The notes under the pieces: generated by a model
What the model was told of the DNA's origin: nothing
The model's database searches: none
What the model saw: the letters and a program-made list of their open reading frames with translations, nothing else
Translations under genes and position numbers: made by a program
In this document: positions 6,586 to 25,165 of the stretch, piece by piece
How positions within the stretch are numbered: the first letter of the stretch is position 1
Layout: each line of letters starts with the position of its first letter
Assembly (NCBI GenBank): GCA_016281925.1
Contig: JAEEJP010000117.1
Location: 1 to 34,900 of the forward strand
DNA: 34,900 nt
Source of the DNA: Methanomassiliicoccaceae archaeon
GTDB lineage: Archaea > Thermoplasmatota > Thermoplasmata > Methanomassiliicoccales > Methanomethylophilaceae
Direction: 5' to 3'

Positions 6586-8640
6586 ATGGCCGAAAACGAG
6601 AGCTCCTCATCCATCGTAGAATGGCTGCTCAGCGGGCCGGGGTCGGGTTCGGAGACGTCCGAAATCCTCCGTCTCCGCATCGAAAGAGGATGGGCCATCC
6701 CGGAATCCGACGGAGAAGCCGAAGCGTATCTGGAGAGCCTCGCCAAAGAAGGCGATTCTGACGCCTGCCGCATCCTCGGTCTGATGCTGGATAAAGGGAT
6801 CGGCGTCCATATTTCCGAATCCGGCGCCCTGGATTGGTACATCAAGGCCGCCGATTGCGGAGACAGCTTCTCCGCGAAGAGGGCCGGAGAGATCTGCCGC
6901 GACCTGGGCAACACCCAATGGTTCGGCGGCGAGGAGCCGACATATTGGGACATAGGGGCCCGGTACGGGAACGTCGATTGCATCCGCGGCCTCGGAGTGG
7001 CATGCGAGACCGAAGGCACCGAAGAGAGCCTGGCAGAAGCGGTGAGGCTCTATAGGAAAGGTGCGGAGATGGGAGACATCAAAGCCGTCAGATGCATAGG
7101 GAACCTCTATGAGAGAGGCCTCGGCCTTCCGAAATCCTATGAGAAAGCCGCGGAATGGTACAGAAAATCCGCCGAACAGGGATATGCGGAGGCGCAATGC
7201 GATCTCGGATACTTCTATGACAAAGGCATGGGCGTCGCCCAGAACTATCCGGAAGCTGCGAGACTTTACAGGCTGTCCGCCGCCCAGGGCTGCGCACGCG
7301 CTATGAACAATCTGGGCCTGCTCTAGGTCTCCGGAAAAGGAGTGGAGAAGGATTATGCCCTGGCATTCGAATGTTTCTCGGAAGCGGCTGAGAAGGGCGA
7401 CATCGACGCCGCAAACAACGTTGGATATTCGTACGAATACGCCATAGGCGTGGATCAGGACTATAAAAAAGCGTTCAAATGGTATTCCACAGCAGCCCAG
7501 ATGGGCGAAATGCACGCCCAATGCAATCTTGCGGCGCTGTACCGGAACGGGCTGGGCACGGAGCAGAACTATGAGCTGGCGATCGAGCTGTACCGGAAAT
7601 CCGCGGAGCAGGGGCATGATGTCGCGCAGTACCAGCTTGGGACCATGTATCAGAACGGCCTAGGCACCGGGAAGGACTATGGGAAGGCCATGGAATGGTA
7701 CATGAAAGCTGCCGAGCAGGGGGACAGCAGAGCGCAGAACTCGATAGGATACCTGTACCAATACGGAAAAGGCGTCACCCAATCCTACCGGGACGCCGCC
7801 GAATGGTACCGGACAGCGGCAGAGAACGGCAGCACTTTAGCGGCTTACAATCTGGGCCGCCTGTATGATAAAGGCGAGGGAGTCCCCCAGTCGGATGCTG
7901 AAGCGTTCAGATGGTACATGAAGGCGGCCGAAGAAGGGGATCCTGACGCCCAGACGAATGTAGGGTACATGTACATCAACGGAAAGGGCGTAGAGCAGTC
8001 GGATGAAAAGGCGATGGAATGGTATATGAAGGCTGCCGAGCAGGGATTGGCTGCCGCCCAATTCAATGTGGGCGTGATGTATGAGCAGGGCACCGTCGTT
8101 CTCCAGTCCTACGAAAAAGCGGTGGAATGGTACATGAAAGCGGCAGAACAAGGCGATCCCGACGCCCAGAACAGCCTCGGAAGCGCATTCTTCAGCGGTC
8201 TGGGCGTGGATCAAGACTTCGGAAAAGCCATGGAATGGTACATGAAAGCCGCGGTGAAAGGCAATCCGAGTTCCCAGTTCAATATCGGCCTCATGTTTCT
8301 GGACGGGTCGGGATTTCCCAAGTCCGACGAGAAAGCGTTCATGTGGTTCCTCAAAGCGGCGCAGAACGGACTGAAAGGCGCCCAAAACAACGTAGGATAC
8401 ATGTACGAGAACGGCCAGGGCGTAGGGCAGGATTACAACCAAGCTTTCGAATGGTTTTCCAGAGCCGCAGAACAGGACCATGCTCTGGCCCAGCATCATC
8501 TGGGCTATCTTTACGAAAAGGGCAGAGGAGTGGGCAAGTCCTTGGATAAAGCTTTGGAATGGTACCGGAAGGCCGCAGAAAACGGCAGCGAAGGTGCCGA
8601 CGAAGATGTCAGAAGGCTTCAATCATTGATAAATCGCTGA
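6586..8640 (+). CDS. Sel1-repeat (TPR-like) protein with one in-frame TAG codon
   Basis: The protein consists almost entirely of about sixteen 36-residue Sel1 repeats (pattern A..LG.LY..G.GV..D...A..WY.KAAE.G) after a 50-residue N-terminus. Sel1 repeats are helix-turn-helix scaffolds for protein-protein interactions. The frame is broken once, by TAG at 7324-7326 (codon 247). Repeats continue in the same frame on both sides, ending in TGA at 8638-8640, so the product is 684 residues if TAG is read. The TAG falls at the conserved aromatic position of a repeat: LGLL-TAG-VSGKGV aligns with LGYFYDKGMGV. No signal peptide or membrane segment is visible. If TAG were a stop, the product would be 246 residues and the rest would need its own start (GTG 7342). 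Confidence 0.85.
7324..7326 (+). other. In-frame amber (TAG) codon in the Sel1-repeat gene; candidate pyrrolysine codon
   Basis: Context is CTC TAG GTC. It replaces the repeat's conserved Tyr position, one base away from TAC or TAT. Both flanks are intact Sel1 repeats in one frame. Confidence 0.7.
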
Positions 8641-8677
8641 TTAGAATCCAAGGTCTGCTACAGAGGTCGGATTCTAA
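8641..8677 (+). terminator. Perfect 9-base inverted repeat directly after the Sel1 gene
   Basis: TTAGAATCC (8641-8649) and GGATTCTAA (8669-8677) are exact reverse complements with a 19-base loop, starting right after the TGA stop. A transcription-end or RNA-stabilising hairpin is the simplest reading. Confidence 0.45.
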
Positions 8678-8932
8678 AAGACAGAGGCGCGGATCATTCC
8701 GTGAAAGAGAATTGCTCCGGTTCTTTCCTGTCGGTGAGCAGACAGCAGAGGTTTTTCAGCGGCGGCTGAAAACTATGGAATTATAATGCAACAGAATATG
8801 TCGGTATTCTTCGGAAATTATAATTGGATATTGGATCCGGTTAAACTAAAATCCAAGCGGCATTGCTGTCCAATAATTGTATTCGGGCTCCTTCATCAGA
8901 ATTGAATTGATATTCGTCTTTTTGTCTTTGTT
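8678..8932. other. AT-rich intergenic stretch with inverted and direct repeats; no gene seen
   Basis: No supported coding region. It holds an 8-base inverted repeat, TTTTCAGC / GCTGAAAA, with a 4-base loop at 8753-8772, a possible terminator for either flanking gene, and two similar elements, GGAATTATAAT (8777-8787) and GGAAATTATAAT (8813-8824). Base composition is lower in G+C than the surrounding genes. Confidence 0.5.
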
Positions 8933-9733
8933 TCAACTGAGCAATTCGATTTCCAACCACAGATGGTTCCTGCCCTTGCCGAAGATATTGCGTCTATGGT
9001 ATTCCAGATAATCGGGATTGGGATCTGCCCCCTTTTTCGGTATTGATATCTCCTCGCCATCGTATTTGCGGAAATAGCTCTCATATACATGTTCATCCAT
9101 AGAATCTTCTATTGACGAGGAAAGCCGAACGCAATAGCCGCTCGGATCGACCGTTATCAATCCGGCATCGAATGCGGCATCATGAAGCGCGTTGAGGCAC
9201 AGGCCATTGCGTACGTCCAACTTCTCTCTGCCGTTACTTTTGCTCCAAGGCTTTATATGGCTTGCCCTGAGAAGACGTGGCTCATTTATCCCGGTGATGC
9301 AGTAAGAACCGCCATAAGCATTCAGCACAAGCTCTCTGAATTTATTCTGATTGACTCTGGTTTTCACCAGACTGTTTTTTGTCAGACCTACCGCCCATTG
9401 ATCTGACTCTATATCAAACGATTCGACTGCCCCGGATACAATCTCATAAATCACATCATATTGGGAATCTTTGTTCAGCTCTTCCAGAGCTTCATCCAAA
9501 GACATACCTTTGAATATCCCCTTGAAATCATCCCCTAAACCATAACGCCTGAGAATTGCCCAGGATTGATACCCTTTACTTTTAGCGCTGTCCAGCCCCA
9601 GTACTTGACTGTCCAATTTCCTGCTGGACAGCCCGTCAAACAGATATCTAATGACGACGTCTTCCCTCAATTCTCTCCTATAATGGTTGAACTCCCTGTC
9701 ACGGGAAGATGTAGTCAATTCGGGAAGCTGCAT
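8933..9733 (-). CDS. HNH endonuclease domain protein (HNH_2-like), probable frameshift at its 5' end
   Basis: The C-terminal half carries an HNH nuclease core: YCITGINEPRLLRASHIKPW, then LDVRNGLCLNALHDAAFDAG (His about 159, Asn about 176, His about 184 when counted from ATG 9733). This is the pattern of HNH proteins found near or within restriction systems and as solitary genes. The N-terminal ~100 residues (SSRDREFNHYRREL, LGLDSAKSKGYQSWAILRRYGL) form a DNA-related or recognition region that I cannot name. ATG 9733 gives 266 residues. The frame is open further upstream, but residues there look non-coding while another frame (9699-9881) looks coding, suggesting a one-base shift near 9720. Composition is AT-richer than the neighbours, which suggests horizontal acquisition. 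No partner methylase is visible. Confidence 0.75.
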   Translation of the reverse strand: MQLPELTTSSRDREFNHYRRELREDVVIRYLFDGLSSRKLDSQVLGLDSAKSKGYQSWAILRRYGLGDDFKGIFKGMSLDEALEELNKDSQYDVIYEIVSGAVESFDIESDQWAVGLTKNSLVKTRVNQNKFRELVLNAYGGSYCITGINEPRLLRASHIKPWSKSNGREKLDVRNGLCLNALHDAAFDAGLITVDPSGYCVRLSSSIEDSMDEHVYESYFRKYDGEEISIPKKGADPNPDYLEYHRRNIFGKGRNHLWLEIELLS

Positions 9734-9881
9734 ACTTGGCCATATAGCCGCTTGCAGCTTTATACTGACCGATAGATAACAATCTATTATGCGTTTTTTC
9801 CAAGCGAAACAATAATTCCGCAGTCGAAAAGACCATTGCATCAGCATCAATCGATCTGCTACCAAACTTATGCGAGAACAA
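9699..9881 (-). pseudogene. Likely frameshifted N-terminal part of the HNH gene
   Basis: From TTG 9881 this 60-codon frame reads like protein (RLEKTHNRLLSIGQYKAASG then YMAKYAAS) before a TGA. A TATA-like TATTAATTAAC on the minus strand (about 9898-9908) lies near the right distance upstream. Removing one C from the CCC run near 9724 would join it smoothly to the HNH frame (AAS followed by ELTTSSRDRE). It may be a real mutation, an assembly error, or a separate small ORF. Confidence 0.4.
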
Positions 9882-9938
9882 TTCTTGAGAAGTTGTTAAT
9901 TAATACGTCATTATTAAGAGACCGAAGGTGGGGCTCCT

Positions 9939-11066
9939 ACGGACCGCAGAAACGCCAAAAACAGCCTGAATAAAAAGCTTGACCGCGCAGCTATCGCGCT
10001 CGGAGGAATCGAAACCGTTAACAATCGCTCCGACAGGAGGGACGCGACGGCCATCCGCATCCTTCCATGGCTAATAGTGGCATGCATACTCGCAACTTTC
10101 GTGCTGACCGTCTTCAGACAGAACTATGATTTCTGGATGTTCATTAACCGCCTCTGCTTCATGTTCGCCATAGCTTTCGCCATAGTGGGCGCATGGGCTC
10201 TGCCATATCTGAACAAAGGACCGTTCCCCTTGTGGCTGCTGGCCGGAGTGACCGTGACAGCTCTCGTAGTCGCATGGGCGTTCTTCACCGGCACCGACGA
10301 TGTTCTCTATCTGAGAGGGCTGGATGCCTATCAAAACTATGGTGCCCAATATCTGGATTATTTCCGCGCCGTCGATCTTCTGCTGACCCTGTTCATGATG
10401 GTAATGGCCCCGATAGGGATCATCACCACCATATCGGCCATGCTGAGGAAATACATACCCAGGCTGCTCCTTTTCGTCGAAACCGGAACCAATAAAGGGA
10501 AGAATCCCGCCGCGAAATTCTTCGAGGTCCCGGACATAGTCGATATCGAGAGCGTAGAGGTCGATCCGGAAGACGAAGGCCACACGGTGGATCTGGATTC
10601 TTTCGTCTGGCTCGGAACTTACACGTTCTCGCTGGGCATACTGGTCTGCTCCATGCTGTTTCTCAACCCGATCATCCTCGAGACGGTCCCGAGCGACGTC
10701 ATAGTCAGAGCGATGATCACCCTGACCCTGTTCCTTCCGGCGATGGTTATCCCGTGGCTCTGCATAAAGAGCACCGGAGCAAAAGCCATTACTGTGGCGC
10801 CCAGGCCGTACTATCTATGGAAAGGCGCCAGGAAGAAGCTTTTCCTGGGATTCGCCACGTTGAGCTTGTTTTTCTTCAGCTTCCTGATTTCCGTCTATTA
10901 CGGAAACGCGGTCGGAACCATCATAAGCTATTATCTGGAATATCTGGTGCCCGCGACGGCCATCTGTCTGGTGTCCGCACTCGTCTATGCCAACTACTTC
11001 TCGAAGGCTCTGCGGGACGGCATCTGCAACGACTTCCTTTATGAGAAAAGGCTTCGGCCGCGATGA
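9939..11066 (+). CDS. Multi-pass membrane protein of unknown function (non-standard start)
   Basis: I do not recognise the family. About eight membrane segments are visible, with a hydrophilic, acidic cytoplasmic-type loop between segments 4 and 5 (PDIVDIESVEVDPEDEG). The first standard start in frame is GTG 10077, but it falls inside the first membrane segment (ILPWLIVACILATFVLTVF). The frame is open upstream to a stop at 9915-9917 and contains convincing protein (DRRNAKNSLNKKLDRAAIA) but no ATG, GTG or TTG. ACG 9939 sits 8 bases after an AGGTG ribosome-site-like sequence and is my preferred start; CTG 9966 is an alternative. The gene is divergent from the HNH gene and ends in TGA. Confidence 0.65.
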   Translation, partial: TDRRNAKNSLNKKLDRAAIALGGIETVNNRSDRRDATAIRILPWLIVACILATFVLTVFRQNYDFWMFINRLCFMFAIAFAIVGAWALPYLNKGPFPLWLLAGVTVTALVVAWAFFTGTDDVLYLRGLDAYQNYGAQYLDYFRAVDLLLTLFMMVMAPIGIITTISAMLRKYIPRLLLFVETGTNKGKNPAAKFFEVPDIVDIESVEVDPEDEGHTVDLDSFVWLGTYTFSLGILVCSMLFLNPIILETVPSDVIVRAMITLTLFLPAMVIPWLCIKSTGAKAITVAPRPYYLWKGARKKLFLGFATLSLFFFSFLISVYYGNAVGTIISYYLEYLVPATAICLVSALVYANYFSKALRDGICNDFLYEKRLRPR

Positions 11067-11237
11067 TGCATCTTTATTGCTTTCCGGCATGTCCCCCAGA
11101 CTTCTGTCTGAGGGGCCGGCCGGCAGACGCATTCCGCAATCAGCATAAACAGCGGATGTTTTCCGCAAAAACATCAAAACAGTGATTTCGGATAAGTTTT
11201 TTAATCATTCGCACATCAGCCAATCCGAGGTTACCAA
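11067..11237. other. Intergenic region with two hairpins and the XRE promoter
   Basis: Hairpin 1 (11093-11115): CCCC-CAGAC pairs with GTCTG-GGGG around TTCT with one bulged A, placed to end transcription of the membrane-protein gene. Hairpin 2 (11155-11175): GATGTTTT pairs with AAAACATC around a 5-base loop, directly upstream of the XRE-gene TATA box; it could be a terminator or an operator. Confidence 0.5.
11197..11205 (+). promoter_or_regulatory. TATA-like box of the XRE-cupin/acyl-CoA synthetase operon
   Basis: TTTTTTAAT is centred about 36 bases before ATG 11238, giving a short leader that holds a GAGGT ribosome site (about 11227-11231). Confidence 0.4.
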
Positions 11238-11789
11238 ATGGCCGAAAACAAGCTTGGTAAGAGAGTAAGCAAGTACAGGGAACAGCTCGAACTGTCGCAG
11301 GAACAGCTCGCAACCAACTCTGGGCTTGATCTCGCCCTAATCAAGGACATCGAGGAGGGACGCACATACCCGCCCGTCGGCCAGCTCATCAAGATCTCCC
11401 GCGCTCTGGGCCAGAGGCTCGGAACATTCATGGACGATCAGTTCCGCCCGGATCCCATAATCGTCAGGAAATCCGGCAGGGAATCCGAGGCATCCTCCAG
11501 GAGTGATTTCGGGGATTACCAGTACTTCCCTCTCGGCAAGGGAAAGACCGACAGGCACATGGAGCCCCTCTTCATCAAGATGGAAGAGGAGAAGGTCCAG
11601 GAGATGTCCATCCACGAAGGCGAGGAATTCATCGTCGTCGTCTCCGGCAAGGTCATCCTGAGGTACGGCAAGGAAGAGAGGATTCTCGAGGAGGGCGACA
11701 GCGCCTATTACAACTCGGTTGTCCCCCATTACGTCGGCTGCGTCGGCGGGCCCGCATCCATATACGCGGTCCTGTACACGCCTATATGA
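11238..11789 (+). CDS. XRE-family transcriptional regulator with C-terminal cupin domain
   Basis: In this 183-residue protein, residues ~8-62 form an XRE/HTH_3 DNA-binding domain (VSKYREQLELSQEQLATNSG, then IKDIEEGRTYPPVGQLIKIS). Residues ~110-180 form a cupin_2 barrel (IHEGEEFIVVVSGKVILRYG, then EEGDSAYYNSVVPHYVG). This architecture senses a small molecule through the cupin and represses or activates neighbouring genes. It is followed after 9 bases by an acyl-CoA synthetase gene, so it most likely responds to the acid or acyl-CoA handled by that enzyme. A second protein of the same architecture at 18837-19412 is paired with another synthetase. The start has TATA and GAGGT at proper spacing. 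Confidence 0.9.
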   Translation: MAENKLGKRVSKYREQLELSQEQLATNSGLDLALIKDIEEGRTYPPVGQLIKISRALGQRLGTFMDDQFRPDPIIVRKSGRESEASSRSDFGDYQYFPLGKGKTDRHMEPLFIKMEEEKVQEMSIHEGEEFIVVVSGKVILRYGKEERILEEGDSAYYNSVVPHYVGCVGGPASIYAVLYTPI

Positions 11790-11798
11790 GGCGATAGC

Positions 11799-13460
11799 AT
11801 GCCTTGCATCCCAAGAAAGAATATAACCAGCGACGAGAGGCTGGGGGATCTCCTCGACAAATGCGCCCGCGAGCATCCGGATAACGATGCCATCGTCTAT
11901 GTGGACAGGGACCTCAGGCTTTCCTGGACCCAATGGAGCGCGGAAGTCGACCTCGTCGCCAAAGGCCTCATGGGCATGGGCGTGAAGAAAGGCGAGAAAG
12001 TGGCCATCTGGGCTACCAACGTCCCCGACTGGATCACCCTCATGTTCGCCACCGCCAAGATCGGCGCGGTACTTCTCACCATCAACACCAACTACAGAAG
12101 GGCGGAGCTTGATTACGTCCTCAAGCAGTCCGACATGGAATATCTGTTCCTCATCGACGGCATGAGGGATGTGGATTATGTGGAGACGGTGTACGAACTC
12201 GTCCCCGAGCTGAGGAAGCAGCCGAGGGAGACGTTCCGCAGCGAGACATATCCCCACCTCAAAAAGGTCGTGTTCCTCGGGCCCCAGAAGCACCGCGGAA
12301 TGTATACGATGAACGAGGTGAAATCCCTGGCCGTCAGCGTCAGCGAGAGCGAATACCAGGAGAGGAAGGATTCCGTGGACGTCCACGACGTGACCATGAT
12401 GCAGTACACCTCCGGGACCACCGGATTCCCCAAGGGAGTCATGCTCACGCACTACAACATCGCAAACGACGGATACTGGCTCGGAGCCAACATGAACTAC
12501 TGCTCTGACGACCGCCTCTGCATCAACGTGCCGCTGTTCCATTGCTTCGGGTGCGTCCTGGGAGTAATGGCGTGCATCAACCACTGCGTCACCATGGTCT
12601 TCTGCGAGGTATTCGACCCGGTGAAGGTGATGACGTCCATAGAGACCGAGCGTTGCACCTCGGTATACGGCGTCCCCACGATGTACATCAGCATCCTGAA
12701 CCACAAGCTGTTCAGCAAATTCGACTTCTCGTCCCTCAGGACGGGCATAATGGCCGGATCCCCGTGTCCCATCAAAGCGATGGAGCAGGTGGTCGACAAG
12801 ATGAACATGAAAGAGATCACCATTGTCTACGGCCTCACGGAAGCGTCCCCCGGCATGACACAGACGACTTACGACGAGCCTTCCATGGAGAAGAAATGCT
12901 CCTCCGTAGGCAAGAAGCTCCAGGGCATAGACACCGTCATCCTCGATCCCGAGACCTACGAGCCCTGCCCCGACGGGGTGATCGGAGAGTTCTGCTGCAA
13001 AGGCTACAACGTCATGAAAGGGTATTACAAGATGCCCGAAGAGACGGCCAAAGTCATAGACAAGAACGGATACCTCCATTCCGGGGACCTGGGATACAGG
13101 GATTCCGACGGGTATTTCTACGTCACCGGCAGGATAAAGGACATGATCATCCGCGGAGGGGAGAACGTCTACCCCAAGGAGATCGAGGACTTCCTCTACC
13201 ACTGCCCCGGAATCAGGGATGTGCAGGTGGTGGGAGTCCCCAGCCAGAAATACGGCGAGCAGGTCGGAGCCTTCATCATAAAGGATCCGGGGGCGGACCT
13301 CACCGAGCAGGATGTCTTCGACTACTGCAAAGGCCAGATCGCCTGGTACAAATCCCCGAAGTTCGTCCAGTTCGTGGACGCTTTCCCGGAGAACGCCGCC
13401 GGAAAGATCAAGAAATACAAGCTCCGCGAGATGGCCCACGAACTCTGGCCCGACGCATAA
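11799..13460 (+). CDS. AMP-forming acyl-CoA synthetase (FadD-like)
   Basis: This 553-residue member of the ANL adenylating superfamily activates a carboxylic acid to acyl-AMP and then acyl-CoA. Motifs are the P-loop YTSGTTGFPKG (about residues 203-213), YGLTEASP, the hinge GRIKDMIIRGGENVYPKEIE (about 443) and the catalytic lysine region NAAGKIKKYKLRE near the C-terminus. It is closer to fatty/medium-chain acyl-CoA synthetases than to acetyl-CoA synthetase. The ATG is preceded by GAGGCGAT, and it lies in an operon with the XRE-cupin regulator. The other two synthetases in the window (15311-16960, 17182-18840) form a different subgroup. The substrate chain length cannot be read from the sequence. 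Confidence 0.9.
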   Translation: MPCIPRKNITSDERLGDLLDKCAREHPDNDAIVYVDRDLRLSWTQWSAEVDLVAKGLMGMGVKKGEKVAIWATNVPDWITLMFATAKIGAVLLTINTNYRRAELDYVLKQSDMEYLFLIDGMRDVDYVETVYELVPELRKQPRETFRSETYPHLKKVVFLGPQKHRGMYTMNEVKSLAVSVSESEYQERKDSVDVHDVTMMQYTSGTTGFPKGVMLTHYNIANDGYWLGANMNYCSDDRLCINVPLFHCFGCVLGVMACINHCVTMVFCEVFDPVKVMTSIETERCTSVYGVPTMYISILNHKLFSKFDFSSLRTGIMAGSPCPIKAMEQVVDKMNMKEITIVYGLTEASPGMTQTTYDEPSMEKKCSSVGKKLQGIDTVILDPETYEPCPDGVIGEFCCKGYNVMKGYYKMPEETAKVIDKNGYLHSGDLGYRDSDGYFYVTGRIKDMIIRGGENVYPKEIEDFLYHCPGIRDVQVVGVPSQKYGEQVGAFIIKDPGADLTEQDVFDYCKGQIAWYKSPKFVQFVDAFPENAAGKIKKYKLREMAHELWPDA

Positions 13461-13468
13461 ACCTTTCA

Positions 13469-13483
13469 GGGGGAGTCTCCCCC
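13469..13483 (+). terminator. Hairpin after the first acyl-CoA synthetase
   Basis: GGGGGA and TCCCCC pair around GTC, nine bases after the TAA stop, followed by a pyrimidine-rich stretch (CTTCTCCTACTG). It separates this operon from the chelatase promoter. Confidence 0.5.
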
Positions 13484-13494
13484 TTCTCCTACTG

Positions 13495-13501
13495 TTTTAT
13501 A
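13495..13501 (+). promoter_or_regulatory. TATA-like box of the chelatase gene
   Basis: TTTTATA is centred 26 bases before ATG 13524, implying a leaderless transcript. Confidence 0.45.
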
Positions 13502-13523
13502 CCCGCCAAGCGATTCGTTGGCC

Positions 13524-14291: not shown

Positions 14292-14346
14292 TTCCGCCGA
14301 CTCCGATCTATCAGGGCAAATCGTCCCAATTCTTCGGTCTTAAAAT

Positions 14347-14365
14347 GGGAGGGGAAATCCCTCCC
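14347..14365 (-). terminator. Hairpin between convergent chelatase and TerB-like genes
   Basis: GGGAGGG and CCCTCCC form a perfect 7-base stem with a 5-base loop. On the minus strand it is followed by ATTTTAAG, so it fits best as the terminator of the 14373-15233 gene; it may also serve the chelatase gene. Confidence 0.5.
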
Positions 14366-14372
14366 TTCAGTT

Positions 14373-16960: not shown

Positions 16961-16997
16961 GGTCTTTCGTCCTGGCAATGGCCTTGATTGGGTGCTC

Positions 16998-17008: not shown

Positions 17009-17029
17009 CAATGAATCATGACCCCGATT

Positions 17030-17080
17030 TCTACGAATCTCGTAGATAAAAATTCCATGTCATTACGAATTTCGAATTCG
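17030..17080. promoter_or_regulatory. Operator-like paired inverted repeats upstream of acyl-CoA synthetase paralogue 1
   Basis: Site 1 (17030-17046): TCTACGA-ATC-TCGTAGA, a perfect 7-base palindrome with a 3-base spacer. Site 2 (17066-17080): CGAATT-TCG-AATTCG, a 6-base palindrome with the same spacer. Both contain TACGAAT(C/T)TCG (17032-17042 and 17064-17074), 32 bases apart, about three DNA turns. They lie upstream of the TATA box, the usual position for activator sites in archaea. A related AATCGAATCGG occurs near 17102. Confidence 0.5.
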
Positions 17081-17129
17081 AGCTTATAAAAATTATACGC
17101 TAATCGAATCGGATAATGAACAGGAAAAT

Positions 17130-17156
17130 CCCCGGGCGCACGCTGGCGCCTTGGGG
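17130..17156 (-). terminator. Hairpin after acyl-CoA synthetase paralogue 2
   Basis: On the minus strand, CCCC..GGCGC pairs with GCGCC..GGGG about 25 bases after the stop at 17182-17184, followed by ATTTTCC and, further on, an A/T-rich ATAATTTTTATAA (about 17084-17097). Confidence 0.45.
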
Positions 17157-17181
17157 ATGGGAAAGATCGTTTGGGGAGCGC

Positions 17182-18840
17182 TCACTGGCGCTTGAGGGCT
17201 TCGGCTTCGTTCTTCTTCCTGATCTCCACCCTGCGGATCTTGCCGCTGATGGTCTTGGGGAGCTCGGGGACGAATTCGACCGCCCTGGGATATTTGTAAG
17301 GCGCGGTGTTGTGCTTCACGTAATCCTGGATCTCTTTCTTCATTTCATCGGTGGGCTCGTACCCTTTCCTGAGGACGATGGTCGCTTTGACGAGCTGGCC
17401 TCTGATGGGGTCGGGAACTCCGGTGACGGCGCATTCCAGAACGGCGGGATGCTCGAGAACGCAGCTCTCCACCTCGAAGGGGCTGATCCTATATCCGGAC
17501 GACTTGATGATGTCGTCGTTCCTTCCGGAGAACCAGAAATAGCCGTCCTCATCCTTCCATGCGATGTCGCCGGTGTGGTGCCATCCGTTGCGGAGGGTCT
17601 CGGCGGTCTTCTCCGGGTTGCGGTAATAGCCGATCATGATTCCGGGGACCTTCGGCTCGATGCTGACGACGATCTCCCCGGTGGCTCCCGGAGGGCAGGA
17701 ATTGCCGTCCTCGTCGATGATGTCGACCTTGAACTGGGGCGAAGGCTTTCCCATGGACCCGGGCTTCGGGGTCATCCCCCTTATGGTTCCGATGGTCATG
17801 GTGGTCTCCGTCTGGCCGTACCCTTCCATGAGCTTCAGCCCGGTCTCCTCGTACCATTTTTCGTATGTATCGGGGTTCAGAGCTTCCCCGGCTATGCAGC
17901 AGTTCTTCAGGGACGAGAGATCGTGGCCCTCGAGCCCGGCGTTCAGATAGAGCCTGAACATCGTCGGAGGGCAGCAGAACGTCGTCACCCTGTGCTTCTC
18001 GATCATGTTGAGGATCTCGCACGGATCGAACTTGTCGTATTCGTACACGAAGACGGCGGATTCCATTATCCACTGGCCGTAAAGGGATCCCCAGACGGCT
18101 TTGCCCCAGCCGGTATCGGCCACGGTCCAATGGAGACCTTCAGGATCCACCTGGTGCCAGTGCTTCGCCGTCATGATGTGGCCGAGCGAATAGGTGTGGT
18201 CGTGGAGGACCATCTTGGGGTTGCTGGAGGTCCCGGACGTGAAATACATGATCATCGGCTCGGTGGCTTTGGTCTCCCTCCTGGCGAGCTCTTCGGGAGC
18301 CTTCTCGACTTCGGCGTCGAAATCAAGCCATCCTTCGCGGGGCTTCCCGGAAAGCAGCCTCACCTTCAGGGAAGGTATGTCCTCCGCCGCTTCGACCGCG
18401 CCGCTGATGTTGGACTGGTCGGTGCATATCACGGCTTTGACGTCCGCAGATCTGATCCTGTATTCGATGTCGTGCTTAGTGAGCATGTGGGTGGCAGGAG
18501 CCACGATCGCGCCCAGCTTATGCAGAGCGACGATGGAATACCAGAACTGGAATTTCTGCTTCAGAATCAGCATGACCACGTCGCCTTTGCCGATGCCCAG
18601 GGATGCGAGGCAGTTGGCCGTCTTGTCGCTCATCCTCTTCATATCCGAGAACGTGAACTTCCTCTCCTCCCCGGTGCAGCTCTCCCATATCATGGCTGTG
18701 CGGGAGGGGTCGTTGACCGCTATGTCATCCACGACGTCGTATCCGAAATTGTAATCCTCAGGATATTTGATCCTGTAGTCCTTGAGAATGCCGTCCTCGC
18801 CGTAGGTCTCCTCAAGATAGCGGAGATTTATTCCCCTCAT
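17182..18840 (-). CDS. AMP-forming acyl-CoA synthetase, paralogue 2
   Basis: This 552-residue protein has the same motif set as paralogue 1: MYFTSGTSSNPKM, GEALNPDTYEKWYEETG, YGQTET, SGRNDDIIKSSGYRISPFEV and LPKTISGKIRRVEIR. It converts a carboxylic acid, ATP and CoA to acyl-CoA, AMP and PPi in the cytoplasm. Its ATG (18838-18840) overlaps the TGA of the XRE-cupin regulator (ATGA), so the two are translationally coupled and co-transcribed. The start is confirmed by this overlap and by the matching N-terminus in paralogue 1. Differences from paralogue 1 concentrate in the N-terminal half, where the acid-binding pocket is formed, so the two may prefer different acids. Confidence 0.92.
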   Translation of the reverse strand: MRGINLRYLEETYGEDGILKDYRIKYPEDYNFGYDVVDDIAVNDPSRTAMIWESCTGEERKFTFSDMKRMSDKTANCLASLGIGKGDVVMLILKQKFQFWYSIVALHKLGAIVAPATHMLTKHDIEYRIRSADVKAVICTDQSNISGAVEAAEDIPSLKVRLLSGKPREGWLDFDAEVEKAPEELARRETKATEPMIMYFTSGTSSNPKMVLHDHTYSLGHIMTAKHWHQVDPEGLHWTVADTGWGKAVWGSLYGQWIMESAVFVYEYDKFDPCEILNMIEKHRVTTFCCPPTMFRLYLNAGLEGHDLSSLKNCCIAGEALNPDTYEKWYEETGLKLMEGYGQTETTMTIGTIRGMTPKPGSMGKPSPQFKVDIIDEDGNSCPPGATGEIVVSIEPKVPGIMIGYYRNPEKTAETLRNGWHHTGDIAWKDEDGYFWFSGRNDDIIKSSGYRISPFEVESCVLEHPAVLECAVTGVPDPIRGQLVKATIVLRKGYEPTDEMKKEIQDYVKHNTAPYKYPRAVEFVPELPKTISGKIRRVEIRKKNEAEALKRQ

Positions 18841-19412
18841 TTCTCGGCACCTCTCATCACTACAGCTATGAATCTGCATCCGCTTTTGGATGTGGCATAC
18901 ATACCATGGGGCTTGCCCGAATCGTAATATACCGAATCCCCGGGGCCGAGATCCATCTCGCGCCCGCCATGGGAGAACCTGAGGGTCCCTTCCAGGATGT
19001 AATCGAATTCCTGGCCTTCGTGGGTGGAGACGCGGATCGGCGCGTTCTGATCTTCCTCGATGTAAGGAGCGAAGACGACGAAGGGCTCGGAGAGCTTGCT
19101 CTTGAACGTAGGTGCGAGATGCTGGTACTGGAATCCCAGCCTCCTCTTCATCGGGAGGCCCTTCCCGTTCCTGACCAATGCGAATCCGGAGAGATGGGGA
19201 TTGTCCCCCGTGAGAAGCTCGACCATGTCGATGCCGAATCTCTCGGCGCATTTGTACAGGAAAGTGAAGGAGAAATCCTTCTTCCCGGTCTCGTATTCGA
19301 GATACTCTTCCACGGGTTTGCCTACGATCTCCGCCATCTCTTCCGCAGGGATGTCGCAGAGCTCCCTCATCGCGACTATGCGTTCCGCCACTTCCGCAAT
19401 ATTAGGTTCCAT
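18837..19412 (-). CDS. XRE-family regulator with cupin domain, second copy
   Basis: In this 191-residue protein, an N-terminal helix-turn-helix (VAERIVAMRELCDIPAEEMA, then EYLEYETGKKDFSFTFLYKC) is followed by a cupin (STHEGQEFDYILEGTLRFSH, LGPGDSVYYDSGKPHGM). It is like the regulator at 11238 in architecture but clearly diverged. ATG 19412 is preferred over GTG 19421 because GGAG (19421-19424) lies 8 bases from the ATG but abuts the GTG. It overlaps the downstream synthetase gene by four bases. It likely senses an acyl compound and controls its own operon. Confidence 0.9.
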   Translation of the reverse strand: MEPNIAEVAERIVAMRELCDIPAEEMAEIVGKPVEEYLEYETGKKDFSFTFLYKCAERFGIDMVELLTGDNPHLSGFALVRNGKGLPMKRRLGFQYQHLAPTFKSKLSEPFVVFAPYIEEDQNAPIRVSTHEGQEFDYILEGTLRFSHGGREMDLGPGDSVYYDSGKPHGMYATSKSGCRFIAVVMRGAEK

Positions 19413-19443
19413 GACCGTCACTCCGCCTGCTATATTTTTGATG

Positions 19444-19453
19444 TATAAAAAAA
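19444..19453 (-). promoter_or_regulatory. TATA-like box of the second regulator/synthetase operon
   Basis: TATAAAAAAA on plus (TTTTTTTATA on minus), centred about 36 bases from ATG 19412, the same spacing as in the first XRE operon. Confidence 0.45.
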
Positions 19454-19488
19454 TGACATAACGGATCGATTTATGGAATCGGTCATTT
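19451..19488. promoter_or_regulatory. Inverted repeat upstream of the second XRE-cupin gene
   Basis: AAATGAC (19451-19457) and GTCATTT (19482-19488) are reverse complements separated by 24 bases; the left arm touches the TATA box. It is a candidate autoregulatory operator. The rest of 19489-19594 is AT-rich with no gene seen. Confidence 0.35.
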
Positions 19489-19594
19489 TTGCGGTTGCTG
19501 TTTCTTTCTTTTAATATGAATTATATCAATAGTTTTACTAAAAACTAAAACAGCCTGTATTCGGCCCATCGGATTTCCAGCGGGAACGTCATCT

Positions 19595-20197
19595 TCAGGC
19601 GTTCGGGCAGCGGGATTTTATGAAATTGTACACGAAATCGAAGTCCTCGTCGCAGACATAGACCTGGTTGTTGCTCACGTATATGACATTCCTTCCCTTA
19701 GCCGCCCTTAAAGCCCTGACATCGGCGAACTCCGTGTACATGCTGGTGTTTGCGGCGGCCAGCAGACCTGCTCCGACGGTCGTCGGATTTCCGGCGGCCA
19801 GCCCGGCCAGGACTGCGATGTCCGCGATGATCCCTGCCTTTTTCACCTGGGCTTCCTGCTGGGCATGGAGCACGCCTTCCTCATCCAGCTCGAAAAGGAC
19901 GCAGTATTTCCAGCCCATCATGGCCGCATAGATGAGATATCCTGCCACTCCCAGAGGAAGAATGATGGCGACGGCTATCAGGGATATCTGGATCGCCATC
20001 CCCAATGCTTCGTCGATATCGGAGCCGTCCGCGATCCCTATGATGAACAGTATGGTGAACACGATCGCTACGACTATCAGCAGCACTTTGATCATCAGAA
20101 GCGGTATCGTGGGATTTCTGATGAGGCTCATCTCGTATATCCAGCGATACTTCCCGTCCAGGCATTTCGTTACTCTGCTTCCTGGCCCGTCGTCCAT
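19595..20197 (-). CDS. Membrane protein of unknown function
   Basis: I do not recognise the family. This 200-residue protein has a short soluble N-terminus, two strong membrane segments (LLMIKVLLIVVAIVFTILFI and ISLIAVAIILPLGVAGYLIY), then a soluble C-terminal part with a Gly/Ala-rich helix (AVLAGLAAGNPTTVGAGLLA) and a YVCDEDFDFVYNFI ending. ATG 20197 is supported by TTTTAAT (20219-20225) 25 bases upstream on the minus strand, fitting a leaderless gene. The frame continues further upstream, but only through non-protein-like sequence antisense to the divergent gene. It ends in TGA. Confidence 0.6.
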   Translation of the reverse strand: MDDGPGSRVTKCLDGKYRWIYEMSLIRNPTIPLLMIKVLLIVVAIVFTILFIIGIADGSDIDEALGMAIQISLIAVAIILPLGVAGYLIYAAMMGWKYCVLFELDEEGVLHAQQEAQVKKAGIIADIAVLAGLAAGNPTTVGAGLLAAANTSMYTEFADVRALRAAKGRNVIYVSNNQVYVCDEDFDFVYNFIKSRCPNA

Positions 20198-20218
20198 GGG
20201 AAAACATAGACGGAAGGG

Positions 20219-20225
20219 ATTAAAA
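20219..20225 (-). promoter_or_regulatory. TATA-like box of the 19595-20197 gene
   Basis: Minus-strand TTTTAAT is centred about 25 bases before ATG 20197; no ribosome site is seen. Confidence 0.35.
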
Positions 20226-20336
20226 TCTTTGGTATGGGCAGAATCCGCAGTAAAAGCCCGTTCCATCCGATATGTGGGATCCCGATTCCGCTGTCGATGT
20301 TTTATATCTGCATAGCGTGCCGCCAAAAGGTCAGAG

Positions 20337-20744
20337 ATGCTGTTCAGAAGAAAGAACATTGAATCGTTCGCCTCGATGAAGCTGTCCATATCCAGCATGC
20401 GCGAAGCGGAAGAGTTCGAAGCGGTATGCGACGGCTCCGAGGTGGTTCTTACCCTGAGAAGGGGATATCTCGGCTCCGACGGGCCCGGCATCCCGTGCAC
20501 GGAAGCCCAATGCGAAACGGAGACGTTCATCTCCCTGCTGAACGGCTGCGGAGTGATGGGGTGGGACGGATTCAGAGGAAAGCATCCCATAGGCATTCTG
20601 GACGGGGAAATGTTCGTTTTCGAAGCCTCCGTCAACGACGGGAAAGAAATACGCGCATCCGGGTCGCAGAATTTCCCCAGAGGGCTCTGGGAGCTCAGAG
20701 ACGGCTTATACGGGATTCTTGACGCAGAAACAAAGGCTGAATGA
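20337..20744 (+). CDS. Small protein of unknown function
   Basis: This soluble protein of 135 residues has no membrane segment or known motif that I can name. Patterns such as EVVLTLRRGYL and GEMFVFEASVNDGKEIRASG suggest a mostly beta fold. A TTTATAT at 20301-20307 lies 33 bases upstream of the ATG. It is divergent from the membrane protein gene and ends in TGA 70 bases before the ATPase start. Confidence 0.6.
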   Translation: MLFRRKNIESFASMKLSISSMREAEEFEAVCDGSEVVLTLRRGYLGSDGPGIPCTEAQCETETFISLLNGCGVMGWDGFRGKHPIGILDGEMFVFEASVNDGKEIRASGSQNFPRGLWELRDGLYGILDAETKAE

Positions 20745-20783
20745 ACCGCATCCGGCGTTCAGAAGCCGCAGGAAATGCTGACG

Positions 20784-20792
20784 TTATTATAT
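20784..20792 (+). promoter_or_regulatory. TATA-like box of the ATPase/oxidoreductase operon
   Basis: TTATTATAT is centred 26 bases before ATG 20814. This argues that 20814, not the ATG at 20775, starts the gene. Confidence 0.5.
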
Positions 20793-20813
20793 GACTGCGC
20801 CAATCGCGAGCCT

Positions 20814-21476
20814 ATGTTCCCGCTTGAGAGAAGGGTCACCGTCATCTGCGGACATTATGGCGTCGGCAAGACGAACCTCTCGATCAATCTGGCGGCGGAC
20901 TTCGCCCGCAGGGGGGAAGATGTGACCCTGATCGATCTGGACATCGTGAACCCCTATTTCAGATCGGCCGATTATGGGAGCCAGCTTGCCGGTTAGGGGG
21001 TCAGGGTCGTGGGGCCGAACTTCGCCAACACGAATCTGGATACGCCTTCGCTGCCGGGATCCATACGCGGTTTCATCGAGGACGGCGAGAAAGTCATCAT
21101 AGACGTCGGGGGCGACGATGCCGGCGCCACCGCGCTTGGGACGTACTCCTCCCTTCTGGCCGGGGCCGATCCGGAGGTGCTCTATGTCGTCAACAGATAC
21201 AGGTCCATGACGACCCGTCCCGAAGAGGCCGAGGAAATACTCTGCGAGATCGAAAAGGCCTCTCGCCTCGCCGCCACGGGGATAGTGAACAACTCCCATC
21301 TCAAGCAGAAGACCGACGAATCCGTGATCCTGGGATCGATAGGGTTCGCCGGCGAAGTCTCCGCGCGCACCGGCCTGCCGATAAAATTCACGGCGGTCCC
21401 GCGCGGCATCAACCTCTTAAATAAAATACCGAACATCTACCCGATAGACGTCTGCGTCAAGGCGCCATGGGAATAA
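20814..21476 (+). CDS. ParA/MinD-like P-loop ATPase with one in-frame TAG codon
   Basis: The P-loop (ICGHYGVGKTNLSINLA) and the following DLDIVNPYFRSADYG are typical of the MinD/ParA/CobQ ATPase group. After the TAG the same frame continues with GPNFANTNLDTPSLPG, VIIDVGGDDAGA (Walker B-like region), YVVNRYRSMT and KFTAVPRG, ending in TAA. The product is 220 residues if TAG (codon 61) is read. The role is unknown, but it directly precedes the four oxidoreductase genes and ends 12 bases before the first, so it may help assemble or insert iron-sulfur clusters in that complex. The start at 20814 agrees with the TATA box and with the protein pattern (MFPLERRVTVICG). Confidence 0.8.
20994..20996 (+). 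other. In-frame amber (TAG) codon in the ATPase gene; candidate pyrrolysine codon
   Basis: Context is GGT TAG GGG, between SADYGSQLAG and GVRVVGPNFANTNLD, a loop where homologous ATPases are expected to be variable. The frame is preserved on both sides. Confidence 0.7.
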
Positions 21477-21488
21477 GCAGGTAGTCAG

Positions 21489-21695
21489 ATGCCCGAAGTC
21501 AAAGTAAACAACGACAGGTGCAAAGGCTGCGAGATGTGCGTCATCACGTGTCCGAAACACTTGCTGGAGCTCGACAGGACGATCACCAACAGCAAAGGGT
21601 ACCATCCCGCGCACATCACAGACCAGAAAGCGTGCACCGGATGCGGCTCCTGCGCTGTAATGTGCCCCGATGTGGCCATCAGAGTGGAGGTCTGA
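21489..21695 (+). CDS. vorD: 2-oxoacid:ferredoxin oxidoreductase, delta subunit (2x[4Fe-4S] ferredoxin)
   Basis: This 68-residue ferredoxin has two CxxCxxCxxxCP motifs: CKGCEMCVITCP and CTGCGSCAVMCP. It passes electrons between the catalytic subunits and external ferredoxin. It is the first subunit gene of a four-gene set; the alpha subunit begins 2 bases after its stop. The name vorD versus korD depends on the enzyme's substrate, which the sequence does not fix. Confidence 0.88.
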   Translation: MPEVKVNNDRCKGCEMCVITCPKHLLELDRTITNSKGYHPAHITDQKACTGCGSCAVMCPDVAIRVEV

Positions 21696-21697
21696 GC

Positions 21698-22771
21698 ATG
21701 GGCGAGAAAGTTCTCATGAAAGGGAACGAGGCCATCGCGGAAGCTGCCATAGCCGCCGGATGCAGACATTTCTTCGGCTACCCGATCACCCCCCAGACAG
21801 AGGTCGCGGCATACATGTCCAAGAGGATGCCGAAGATCGGCGGGGTGTATCTCCAGGGTGAATCCGAGGTCGCGTCGATCAATATGGTCCTCGGAGCAGG
21901 AGCCGCCGGCGTCAGGGTCATGACGTCCACGTCTTCCCCCGGGATCAGCCTCATGGCCGAGGGCATCTCATACATAGCGGGATCGGATGTCCCGTGCCTC
22001 ATAGTCAACGTACAGCGCGGAGGCCCCGGCCTCGGAGGCATTCAGCCTTCCCAGGCGGATTACTATCAGGCCACCAAAGCGTCCGGCCACGGAGACTTCC
22101 AGATGCTCGTGTTCGCGCCTTCCACCGTCCAGGAGATGGTGGACCTCGTGGCGGGAGCGTTCGAGCTCGGAGACAAATACAGGATGCCCGCGATGATCCT
22201 CTCCGACGGCATGCTCGGGCAGATGATGGAGCCGGTGGAGCTCCCCGAGAAGAGGGAGAACCCGGAAGACAACAAGCCTTGGGCGGCTTCCGGCCATCAG
22301 AACAAGAGGGGCCACAACGTCATCAACTCCCTTTACATCGATCCCCACGAGCTGGAGAGGCTCGTCGTCGAGAGATACAAGAAATACGACGCAATCAAAG
22401 AGACGGAGCAGAGGGCTGAGGAGTACCTCGCAGACGACGCGGAAATCATAATCGTCGCCTTCGGAGCGTCCTCCAGGGTCTCCCGCTCCGCAGTGGACAT
22501 GGCCAGGAAACAGGGGATCAAGGCCGGGCTGGTCAGGCCGATCACGCTGTGGCCCTTCCCCGAGAAGTTCCTCGCCAAGCATGCCGGCCACGCCAAAGTC
22601 TTCCTTTCCGTGGAGATGTCCATGGGCCAGATGGTCGACGACGTGAAGCTGGCCATAAACTGCAGCAGACCGGTCGAATTCTTCGGCCGCACAGGAGGTG
22701 TGATTCCTACGCCCAAAGAAGTGCTGGAACAGATCGTCAGGCTCAACGGAGGCGGATACCGATGCCGGTGA
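21698..22771 (+). CDS. vorB: 2-oxoacid:ferredoxin oxidoreductase, alpha subunit (VorB/KorA type)
   Basis: This 357-residue pyruvate-ferredoxin-oxidoreductase-like domain I+II protein has MKGNEAIAEAAIAAGC, FFGYPITPQTEVA, VMTSTSSPGISLMAEG and RGGPGLGGIQPSQADYYQA. The pattern, notably the MGEKVLMKGNEA N-terminus, is closest in my recall to VorB (branched-chain 2-oxoacid type), with KorA (2-oxoglutarate) as the alternative. ATG 21698 is preceded by a strong GGAGGT (21687-21692) at 5 bases. Its 3' end overlaps the beta-subunit gene by 10 bases. Confidence 0.9.
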   Translation: MGEKVLMKGNEAIAEAAIAAGCRHFFGYPITPQTEVAAYMSKRMPKIGGVYLQGESEVASINMVLGAGAAGVRVMTSTSSPGISLMAEGISYIAGSDVPCLIVNVQRGGPGLGGIQPSQADYYQATKASGHGDFQMLVFAPSTVQEMVDLVAGAFELGDKYRMPAMILSDGMLGQMMEPVELPEKRENPEDNKPWAASGHQNKRGHNVINSLYIDPHELERLVVERYKKYDAIKETEQRAEEYLADDAEIIIVAFGASSRVSRSAVDMARKQGIKAGLVRPITLWPFPEKFLAKHAGHAKVFLSVEMSMGQMVDDVKLAINCSRPVEFFGRTGGVIPTPKEVLEQIVRLNGGGYRCR

Positions 22772-23511
22772 AAGGGGAAAGGCCCCACGCGCTCCTCGAT
22801 GTGCCGCTCCATTACTGCCCCGGATGCACCCACGGGATCGTCCACAGGCTCGTAGCCGAAGTGATAGACGAGCTCGGGATCGAGGGGAAAACAGTGGGAG
22901 TCGCTTCGGTAGGATGCTCGGTCTTCACGTACAACTACTTCGGATGCGACATGGTCCAGGCTCCCCACGGGAGGGCTCCGGCCGTCGCCACAGGAGTCAA
23001 GAGGGCCAGGCCGGAGAACGTGGTCTTCACCTACCAGGGCGACGGAGACCTCGCCGCCATAGGCATGGGGGAGACCGTGCATGCCGCCGCCAGAGGCGAG
23101 AACATAGTCGCCATATTCATCAACAACGCCATCTACGGGATGACCGGAGGCCAGATGGCTCCCACGACCCTTCCCGGGCAGGTCACTCAGACCACCCCCT
23201 ACGGAAGGGACGTGAAAACGGCCGGGAATCCCATAAGGGTGTGCGAGCTCCTCTCGTCGCTGGACGGGGTCGCCCTGGCTCAGCGCGTCACTGTCGACTG
23301 CGTCAGGAACGTGAACATAGCGAAGAAAGCGATCAGAAAGGCTTTCGAATACCAGATGGAAGGCAGGGGATACTGCATCATCGAGGTCGTGTCCACCTGC
23401 CCCACCAACTGGGGGCTTTCTCCGAAAGACGCCATCCAGTGGCTCAGGGACAACATGCTCCCGTACTATCCGCTGGGAGTCTACAAGGACGCAGGGGAGG
23501 CGGAGCAATGA
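22762..23511 (+). CDS. vorA: 2-oxoacid:ferredoxin oxidoreductase, beta subunit (thiamine diphosphate binding)
   Basis: This 249-residue protein has the thiamine-diphosphate motif GDGDLAAIG (residues 93-101) leading to NNAIYGMTGGQ (121-131). Cysteines in YCPGC (residues 18-22) and VGCSV (50-54) match the cluster-binding cysteines of this family. It decarboxylates 2-oxoacids to acyl-CoA with ferredoxin reduction, or runs in reverse. The start overlaps the alpha subunit; the stop overlaps the gamma-subunit start (ATGA), so the genes are translationally coupled. Confidence 0.9.
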   Translation: MPVKGERPHALLDVPLHYCPGCTHGIVHRLVAEVIDELGIEGKTVGVASVGCSVFTYNYFGCDMVQAPHGRAPAVATGVKRARPENVVFTYQGDGDLAAIGMGETVHAAARGENIVAIFINNAIYGMTGGQMAPTTLPGQVTQTTPYGRDVKTAGNPIRVCELLSSLDGVALAQRVTVDCVRNVNIAKKAIRKAFEYQMEGRGYCIIEVVSTCPTNWGLSPKDAIQWLRDNMLPYYPLGVYKDAGEAEQ

Positions 23512-24044
23512 CCGGCGACCTCAACATACTTCTGGCCGGGTTCGGCGGGCAGGGAATCCTGTTCACCGGGAAGGTCATCGCCTACGCCGGGCTGATGGGC
23601 GGCAGGGAAGTCTCCTGGCTCCCGTCGTACGGGCCCGAGATGCGCGGAGGGACCGCCAACTGCAGCGTCTGTCTGTCCGACAAGACGATAGGCTCGCCTC
23701 TGGTGACGATGCCGGATGTCCTCGTGGCCATGAACCTTCCGTCCCTGGAGAAATTCGAGGGCGATGTCGTCCCCGGAGGGCTGATCATCGTTGACAGCTC
23801 CATCATCAGCAAGAAAGTCTCCCGTTCGGACGTCAGAGCGGTGTACGTGGACGCCTCGAACATCGCGGAATCCAACGGCCTGAAAGGGGCGGCCAACATG
23901 ATCATCCTCGGAAGGATGTTCAGGGAGACCGGATTCTGCTCGGCGGAAATCCTGGACAAAGGGCTCCAGAAATCCATCCCGCCGAAGAAGATCGAGCTTC
24001 TCGGAAACAACAGGAAAGCCATACAGCTGGGCATCGACAGCTGA
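23508..24044 (+). CDS. vorC: 2-oxoacid:ferredoxin oxidoreductase, gamma subunit
   Basis: This 178-residue gamma/domain III subunit has LLAGFGGQGILFTGKVIAYA and LPSYGPEMRGGTANCSV, which contribute to CoA binding and the subunit interface. It is the last gene of the operon and ends in TGA before the hairpin at 24061-24084. Confidence 0.9.
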   Translation: MTGDLNILLAGFGGQGILFTGKVIAYAGLMGGREVSWLPSYGPEMRGGTANCSVCLSDKTIGSPLVTMPDVLVAMNLPSLEKFEGDVVPGGLIIVDSSIISKKVSRSDVRAVYVDASNIAESNGLKGAANMIILGRMFRETGFCSAEILDKGLQKSIPPKKIELLGNNRKAIQLGIDS

Positions 24045-24060
24045 ATCGGGCGGGCGGGTC

Positions 24061-24084
24061 CGGGGCTCCTCTTTTCCGGCCCCG
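24061..24084. terminator. GC-rich hairpin between the oxidoreductase operon and the dihydrouridine synthase gene
   Basis: CGGGGC (24061-24066) pairs with GCCCCG (24079-24084) around a T-rich loop, in the 71-base gap between convergent genes. It could end transcription from both sides. Confidence 0.45.
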
Positions 24085-24115
24085 CCTCCGCCTGACCCAT
24101 TTTCTCTTCCGGCCT

Positions 24116-25165
24116 TCAATCTTCGCCGTGCGCGCACGCCGCATCCGTTCCCGGGCGGCCGACCGTCCTGTCCTCTGATCTCTCCTCGATCAGATCCAGC
24201 AGCGCGAAAAGCTCCTCTTTAGTCTCGGGCTCTGTGGCCAGCCTTCTGCGGCCGGCGCTCCATCTGCATCCCGAAAAGAACTTCGGCGCTATGCTGCGGA
24301 GCTTTTTCACGCCTATTGCCTCGCCTTTCTCCCCGATCACGGCCTCGGACAGCTCTCTGCACCATGCGATCTGCTGCCTGACGGTGGGGTTCGGGACGCG
24401 CTTCCCGGAACGGAACCAGGAGTCGATCTGCCTCACCAAGTTGGGGTTGCCTATGCCTCCGCGCGCGACCATGATCCCGGCCGCTCCTGAGCATCTCTCC
24501 GCCTAGATCGCATCCTCCAGGGAATAGATGTTCCCGGAGACGATCAGCGGGACGGGAAGCTCTTTCTGCAGCCCCTCCAGGAGATCGTAGTGAGGACGGC
24601 CGGCATAGCGCTCCCTGACCGTTCTGGCATGGACGGCGACCACATCGGCCCCGGCGGAAACGGTTTCGTCCAGCACCTCGCGGAAATTGATGGATTCCAT
24701 GCTCTTCCCGAGGCGCGTCTTTATGGTCACAGGCATCCCCGTGGCCTTTCTGACGGCCCGGACGATCTCCCCGCATCTCCCGGGATCGGCCATCAGAGCG
24801 GACCCGGAACCTGAGCGGAGGACTTTCGGCACGGGGCATCCCATATTGATGTCGAAGAAGCTGATGTTAGGGTTCATCCTCATGGCTATGGAGGCGGCTT
24901 CGGCGATCTCTTCCGGGCCGCTCCCGAACAATTGCAGCCCCGTGGGATAATTCGGCCCGAAACCGACGTACATGGAGCCCGTCCTTTCGCTGTCGTGGAT
25001 CACTCCCGCCGATGATGTGAGCTCGGTCACCGACACCGCCACGCCGAACGGCTTCATAAAATCCCTGTAGCTGGCGAATGTGAACCCTGACATGGGCCCC
25101 AGAATGACCTTGCCCTCTACCGGGATGTCTCCGATCTTCCACATCCTGGCTGCCGATGCGGTCAT
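24116..25165 (-). CDS. dus: tRNA-dihydrouridine synthase with one in-frame TAG codon
   Basis: This FMN enzyme reduces uridine to dihydrouridine in tRNA. Motifs are VILGPMSGFTFASYR, DINMGCPVPKV with catalytic Cys110, TIKTRLGKS, VVAVHARTVRERYAG, and VSGNIYSLEDAI. After TAG at 24503-24505 (codon 221) the same frame gives AERCSGAAGIMVARGGIGNP, the conserved phosphate-binding end of the barrel, then a C-terminal helical domain, ending in TGA. The product is 349 residues, a normal Dus length; stopping at TAG would remove essential FMN-binding sequence. The ATG at 25165 is 3 bases after the transporter gene's stop, so the two are co-transcribed; MWK at codon 8 is an alternative start. Confidence 0.85.
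24503..24505 (-). other. In-frame amber (TAG) codon in the dihydrouridine synthase gene; candidate pyrrolysine codon
   Basis: Context on the minus strand is ATC TAG GCG. It lies in a helix between SGNIYSLEDAI and AERCSGAAG, where related enzymes would be expected to have a charged or polar residue; AAG, GAG or CAG are one base away. Confidence 0.75.

Follow-up and report, generated by a model that had tools for sequence, protein, structure and literature searches.

Does TAG still terminate translation in this archaeon, or is it read as an amino acid, and if so as which one? The question is raised by three genes, each interrupted by a single TAG, in the window analysed here, a stretch of 34,900 nucleotides that constitutes an entire contig (C21). 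The genome (1.96 Mb in 122 contigs, 85.9% complete) belongs to a relative of the rumen methane producers. The closest named match of its Dus protein is found in Thermoplasmata archaeon SIG7 (SUSZ01000031, 72% identity), and the next ones (68-69%) in Candidatus Methanomethylophilaceae assemblies obtained from the rumen of sheep and of buffalo and from sheep omasum; the genome is presumably of rumen-type origin. Among the genomes used for comparison, the one designated G072 is syntenic with the window, with 83-84% DNA identity across about 16 kb in two blocks.

The products of the interrupted genes are a Sel1-repeat protein, an ATPase of the MinD/ParA-like type and a tRNA dihydrouridine synthase resembling DusB (Table 1). 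The claim of an initial sequence-only reading that TAG is read in unrelated genes is supported. Beyond the TAG, the frame remains open for 437 codons up to a TGA in the Sel1 gene, for 159 codons up to a TAA in the ATPase gene and for 128 codons up to a TGA in the Dus gene. In the ATPase, for which the gene caller favours a later start at 20814, the TAG falls behind the P-loop, as read in the sequence; a search of a structure library with this protein returned distant P-loop proteins only.

Under the standard code, 32 genes were called in the window, ending in TGA (24), TAA (5) or TAG (3), and the only three TAG-ending calls are the Sel1, ATPase and Dus genes themselves. The same initial reading had stated that no gene whose terminator it read ends in TAG, in line with the window calls once these three are read through. 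With TAG treated as a sense codon, 29 genes were called (24 TGA and 5 TAA ends), the absence of TAG ends being in this case a matter of construction. The caller carries a penalty on TAG; the unpenalised version produced in the window one spurious gene that contained 11 TAGs. One window gene conserved in G072, encoding an HNH-domain protein, was overlooked by the caller. Its open reading frame has the same end with TAG as sense, and it is therefore not TAG-terminated. TAG and lysine codons interchange at one position of this gene between close relatives. The contig also carries an ABC ATPase with an RLI-type domain (ABCE1-like, ribosome recycling; 29948-31711, minus strand) and a methionyl-tRNA synthetase gene (31812-34064, plus strand).

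Table 1. Genes and in-frame TAG codons considered in this study. Positions are those of the window unless a locus is named.
Feature	Position	Strand	Basis
Sel1-repeat protein, 684 aa via one TAG	6586..8640	+	14 Sel1 repeats (PF08238)
In-frame TAG, Sel1 protein codon 247	7324..7326	+	Sequence, homologue alignment
HNH-domain protein	8933..9865	-	AAA (Lys) at one codon, against TAG in G072
MinD/ParA-like P-loop ATPase, 233 aa via one TAG	20775..21476	+	CbiA/ParA (PF01656)
In-frame TAG, ATPase codon 74	20994..20996	+	PF01656 match 29-148 spans the TAG
DusB-like tRNA dihydrouridine synthase, 349 aa via one TAG	24116..25165	-	Dus (PF01207)
In-frame TAG, Dus codon 221	24503..24505	-	T at 24505; PF01207 match 22-323 spans the TAG
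TAG-ending calls outside the window extended by homologues	L008:1724; L009:14104; L010:2028; L011:6536; L011:18433		

Comparison with relatives was used to establish whether these TAGs are genuine. ATPase homologues were compared in six genomes: the codon is TAG in G072, G073 and G063, GAG in G071 and G057, and AAC in G016. At codon 221 of Dus, TAG is likewise present in G072, G063 and G073 (G063 yields the same alignment as the record SIG7, and G073 the same as RGIG6908), and further homologues carry assorted sense codons. The sense codons of other relatives at the two sites comprise GAG, AAC, TCC and many more. Since three further species of the genus, with protein identities of 69-85%, have TAG at the very codons found here in the ATPase and Dus genes, these two TAGs are not errors and, as judged from the alignments, have lasted through species divergence. 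The Sel1 homologue of G063 (61.97% identity over residues 1-680) has TAT (Tyr) at this position. The check for sequencing errors proposed in the initial reading is therefore settled for the ATPase and Dus genes, and not for the Sel1 gene. At such TAG sites, relatives show E, Q, K, Y, S, R and N, among others, several of them being one base away from TAG.

In agreement with the statement that the three TAGs interrupt genes whose homology continues in frame, selection was detected on both sides of all of them. Across 13 comparisons, dN/dS on the two sides of the TAG ranges from 0.07 to 0.41, one upstream value being not computable. Upstream and downstream values are 0.255 and 0.142 for the ATPase against G072, 0.090 and 0.139 for Dus against G072, 0.089 and 0.258 for Dus against G063, and 0.147 and 0.262 for Dus against G073. 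For Sel1 against G063 they amount to 0.283 and 0.128, with a downstream dS near saturation. The low dN/dS downstream of each TAG shows that the protein encoded there is under in-frame selection.

Internal TAGs are found well beyond the window. In a sample of 303,118 bases (about 15% of the genome, non-random as it includes the window and the contig of the pyl genes), 25 of 263 called genes contain a total of 30 internal TAGs, a few of these calls being probably false, such as L008:19224 with its three TAGs. The corresponding figures are 30 of 649 genes with 36 TAGs in G072, and 10 of 403 genes with 10 TAGs in G016. Sequence on both sides of the TAG is coding-like in 21/30, 22/36 and 8/10 cases, respectively. 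Family matches run across the TAG in TruA, archaeosine synthase (ArcS), an ABC ATPase and a D-aminoacyl-tRNA deacylase. In RNA polymerase A'' (L011:17257-18729, minus strand), the TAG at codon 100 lies just ahead of the start of the family match; the same TAG is present in G072 (95% identity) and is replaced by Lys in G016.

Stops located inside genes that are intact in a relative were also compared, using queries called under the standard code and requiring 20 aligned residues on both sides. Within genes intact in G072 or G016, five TAG and one TGA were found in the present genome, and four TAG, no TGA and no TAA when at least 40% identity was required on both sides. With the same filter, the reverse comparison gave two TAG, two TGA and two TAA of G072, and one TAG and one TGA of G016, inside genes of the present genome. 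The TGA and TAA codons of G072 sit in three of our calls: a run-on gene (TGA), a candidate false call (TGA and TAA) and a plain TAA. The base that follows the 21 coding-like internal TAGs is G in 15 cases, A in five and C in one; G follows 8/22 of them in G072 and 3/8 in G016. The excess of G is not seen in G072, and no conclusion was drawn from it.

The ability of TAG to end genes was addressed with G072 genes aligned to their ends. Among 118 pairs, 13 had no stop of the present genome within 12 codons; at the remaining 105 orthologue-fixed ends the stops are TGA (90), TAA (13) and TAG (2). The first of the two TAG ends is preceded by an in-frame TGA and falls in a tail that aligns poorly. 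The second belongs to a TetR-like gene (L011:721-1257), in which the TAG is found one codon past the stop of the G072 orthologue and is followed by a TGA after five more codons; this TAG could be a terminator. In the reverse test (107 pairs, eight without a stop), G072 uses TGA at 90 ends, TAA at nine and TAG at none of 99. Normal termination at TAG, which the sequence-only reading had held incompatible with reassignment, is therefore rare, with two ends in 105 and both of them weak cases. As TAG triplets are about as common as TAA triplets in the sample (5.1 and 4.4 per 1000), the scarcity of TAG ends is not a matter of base composition.

Standard-code calls of the present genome that end in TAG number 29, of which 13 have a non-coding-like extension; several are apparently spurious calls or run-ons. 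Homologues extend beyond the TAG in eight of the 29, namely the three window genes and the five loci listed in Table 1; the Sel1 extension was judged by the G063 homologue, the comparison of the 29 calls having shown only paralogues of Sel1. Among the other calls, one TAG is at an ancestral end and 20 were not placed by homologue comparison, these 20 including mtmB and archaeosine synthase, whose TAG is internal according to family matches. Backup TAA or TGA stops within five codons gave no usable signal: they follow TAG ends in 1/29 cases here, 4/31 in G072 and 0/9 in G016, and TGA ends in 28/208, 84/532 and 49/351 cases, respectively. A few genes lack a stop at the expected end and run on into neighbouring sequence: those for a radical SAM protein (L011:15175, plus strand), TruA (L011:6536, plus), thymidylate kinase (L018:9573, plus) and a tRNA thiolation protein (L006:9879, minus). 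A TGA is present near the expected end in G072 for the radical SAM gene and in G016 for the thymidylate kinase gene.

A search for pylT, pylS and pylBCD, suggested in the initial reading, found all of these genes, pylB being partial. Contig C94 carries pylS, the tRNA-Pyl gene, the partial pylB, and mtmB beside a corrinoid protein gene. The tRNA-Pyl gene, with its CTA anticodon, adjoins pylS (L001:1371-1441, minus strand) and was found in G072 too. PylS scores 255.9 bits with TIGR02367 (255.8 in a repeat search) against a cut-off of 178.15; it is a protein of 273 aa that matches the C-terminal part only. On contig C8, PylC reaches 306.8 bits (cut-off 248.3) and PylD 198.5 bits (cut-off 150.05). 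PylB, with 208.4 bits over 173 residues, stays under its cut-off of 348.2 because the contig ends within the gene. The mtmB product matches the whole PF05369 profile (762 bits, residues 7-456) and has its expected TAG at codon 201. Among 31 genomes of the genus, PylD is above cut-off in 30 and PylS in 27.

The release factor aRF1 retains the NIKS, YRCDSQF (YxCDxxF motif) and GGQ sequences. In the genus, 25 of the 28 aRF1 copies over cut-off were read, our own included, and show NIKS in 24 cases and NIRS in one; the solved aRF1 structure 4af1 has NIKS and YHCDSAF. Given these motifs, aRF1 probably still recognises UAG, and a code change by an altered aRF1 was rejected, its stop-recognition motifs being unchanged. 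No second tRNA with a CTA anticodon was found among 42 matches to the Rfam tRNA model in this 85.9% complete genome. ARAGORN names 41 of these matches, and the remaining one, longer and probably intron-bearing, was read by eye as CAT. A suppressor tRNA was rejected as well on this count; the tRNA-Pyl itself is missing from the 42 matches, so such a search can miss odd tRNAs and does not constitute proof.

If the TAGs were true stops, the genes would be broken, or their downstream parts would be made separately by re-initiation, for which in-frame GTG or ATG codons are available after the TAGs (for instance in the ORFs 21009-21476 and 24116-24472). The presence of the same TAG in other species and the purifying selection on either side argue against this explanation, as does the position of the break, which would fall inside the Dus and CbiA matches and, in the ATPase, behind the P-loop; we consider it very improbable. 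Even less credit can be given to the idea that only methylamine methyltransferases use TAG in this way and that errors of sequencing or assembly account for the three cases in the window. The mtmB gene does carry its expected TAG, and an error is possible at the single Sel1 site, which is not common to G063, but the other two sites are shared with other species and more TAG sites occur in unrelated genes. The sense reading of TAG could alternatively rely on an ordinary suppressor tRNA that inserts one of the standard amino acids (Lys, Tyr, or Gln as code 15 has it). The residues of relatives at these sites (among them E, N, S, Y, K, Q and R) do not point to pyrrolysine in particular; against this proposal stand the complete Pyl gene set of the genome and, with the reservation made above, the tRNA search, and its likelihood appears to be very slight.

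A more serious competitor is a dual use of UAG, partly for pyrrolysine and partly for termination, each gene giving a short and a long product. The unchanged appearance of aRF1 and the TetR-like gene with its TAG at an ancestral end fit this scheme. However, TAG accounts for at most two of the 105 orthologue-fixed ends here and for none of 99 in G072, and termination at the TAGs of Dus, TruA, ArcS, the ABC ATPase and the D-aminoacyl-tRNA deacylase would cost much product. Dual use is rather unlikely. It overlaps with the reading that we favour, namely that pyrrolysine is the main reading of UAG genome-wide, which is highly probable and compatible with some termination at UAG.

TAG thus appears to be mostly, perhaps wholly, a pyrrolysine codon in this organism, and many ordinary genes very probably encode pyrrolysine by TAG; the residue inserted at the three window TAGs would accordingly be pyrrolysine. 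In the mechanism that we propose, PylBCD would make pyrrolysine from lysine, and PylS, devoid of the N-terminal domain, would charge tRNA-Pyl (anticodon CUA), which may then efficiently outcompete aRF1 at UAG. As aRF1 looks normal, we infer competition and not a loss of recognition. Most simply, ordinary pyrrolysine decoding of sufficient strength would have removed TAG as a terminator, and TAG could then drift into tolerant sites: with UAG hardly serving as a terminator, a mutation to TAG at such a site is nearly harmless, can persist and can pass to daughter species. The three window genes may represent three TAG sites captured in this way. A bolder proposal, which we put forward tentatively and regard as almost evenly balanced, is that the reassignment is complete in this genus. 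All TAGs would then be pyrrolysine codons, individual pyrrolysines of core proteins (ATPase, DusB, RNA polymerase A'') would be old, vertically inherited and perhaps selected, and the normal-looking aRF1 would merely be outcompeted.

Methanosarcina has a pyrrolysine system with pylTSBCD and an mtmB gene with an in-frame TAG, as observed here. Methanosarcina PylS possesses an N-terminal domain, whereas the present one consists of the C-terminal part only. An archaeal 'Pyl code', in which all TAG codons of some archaea stand for pyrrolysine, was reportedly described with proteomic confirmation by Kivenson and others in Science in 2025; our literature search for archaea with a pyrrolysine code at the scale of the genome did not return such a paper. 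TAG still represents about 4-5% of stops in Methanosarcina (PMC4153887). The use of amber codons in unrelated genes is already described for the order of our archaeon. There is good support for a TAG that is largely reassigned here, beyond the methyltransferases, but in this order such a finding is not new. In Candidatus Methanomethylophilus alvus, of the same order, 16 Pyl proteins were predicted beyond the methyltransferases, in unrelated genes, TAG makes up 1.6% of stops, and constitutive Pyl decoding was argued (Borrel 2014, PMC4153887). The two organisms share TAG in unrelated genes and the rarity of TAG stops; the share of 25 TAG-containing genes in 263 and the TAGs conserved between species, reported here, have no counterpart in the passages of that paper on M. 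alvus. The rumen Methanomassiliicoccales ISO4-H5 has a complete pyl operon and in-frame amber codons in 46 genes, including those for adenylate kinase, an isomerase and cas3; the reactions of PylBCD and PylS are established (PMC5011839). The amber genes named for ISO4-H5 differ from those found here, and the passages of that paper on this strain hold neither gene-end nor selection tests.

Standard annotation would truncate or lose up to about one tenth of the genes sampled here (25/263). The TAG sites shared between species constitute a natural set for asking whether proteins other than methyltransferases benefit from pyrrolysine or are indifferent to it, and they bear on what prevents a normal-looking aRF1 from acting at UAG. 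Related families also carry TAGs at other positions: a Sel1-repeat paralogue of G072 (L202) has its own TAG at a different position, and a Dus homologue from another genus (L045, genome G052) is interrupted by a single in-frame TAG at another codon.
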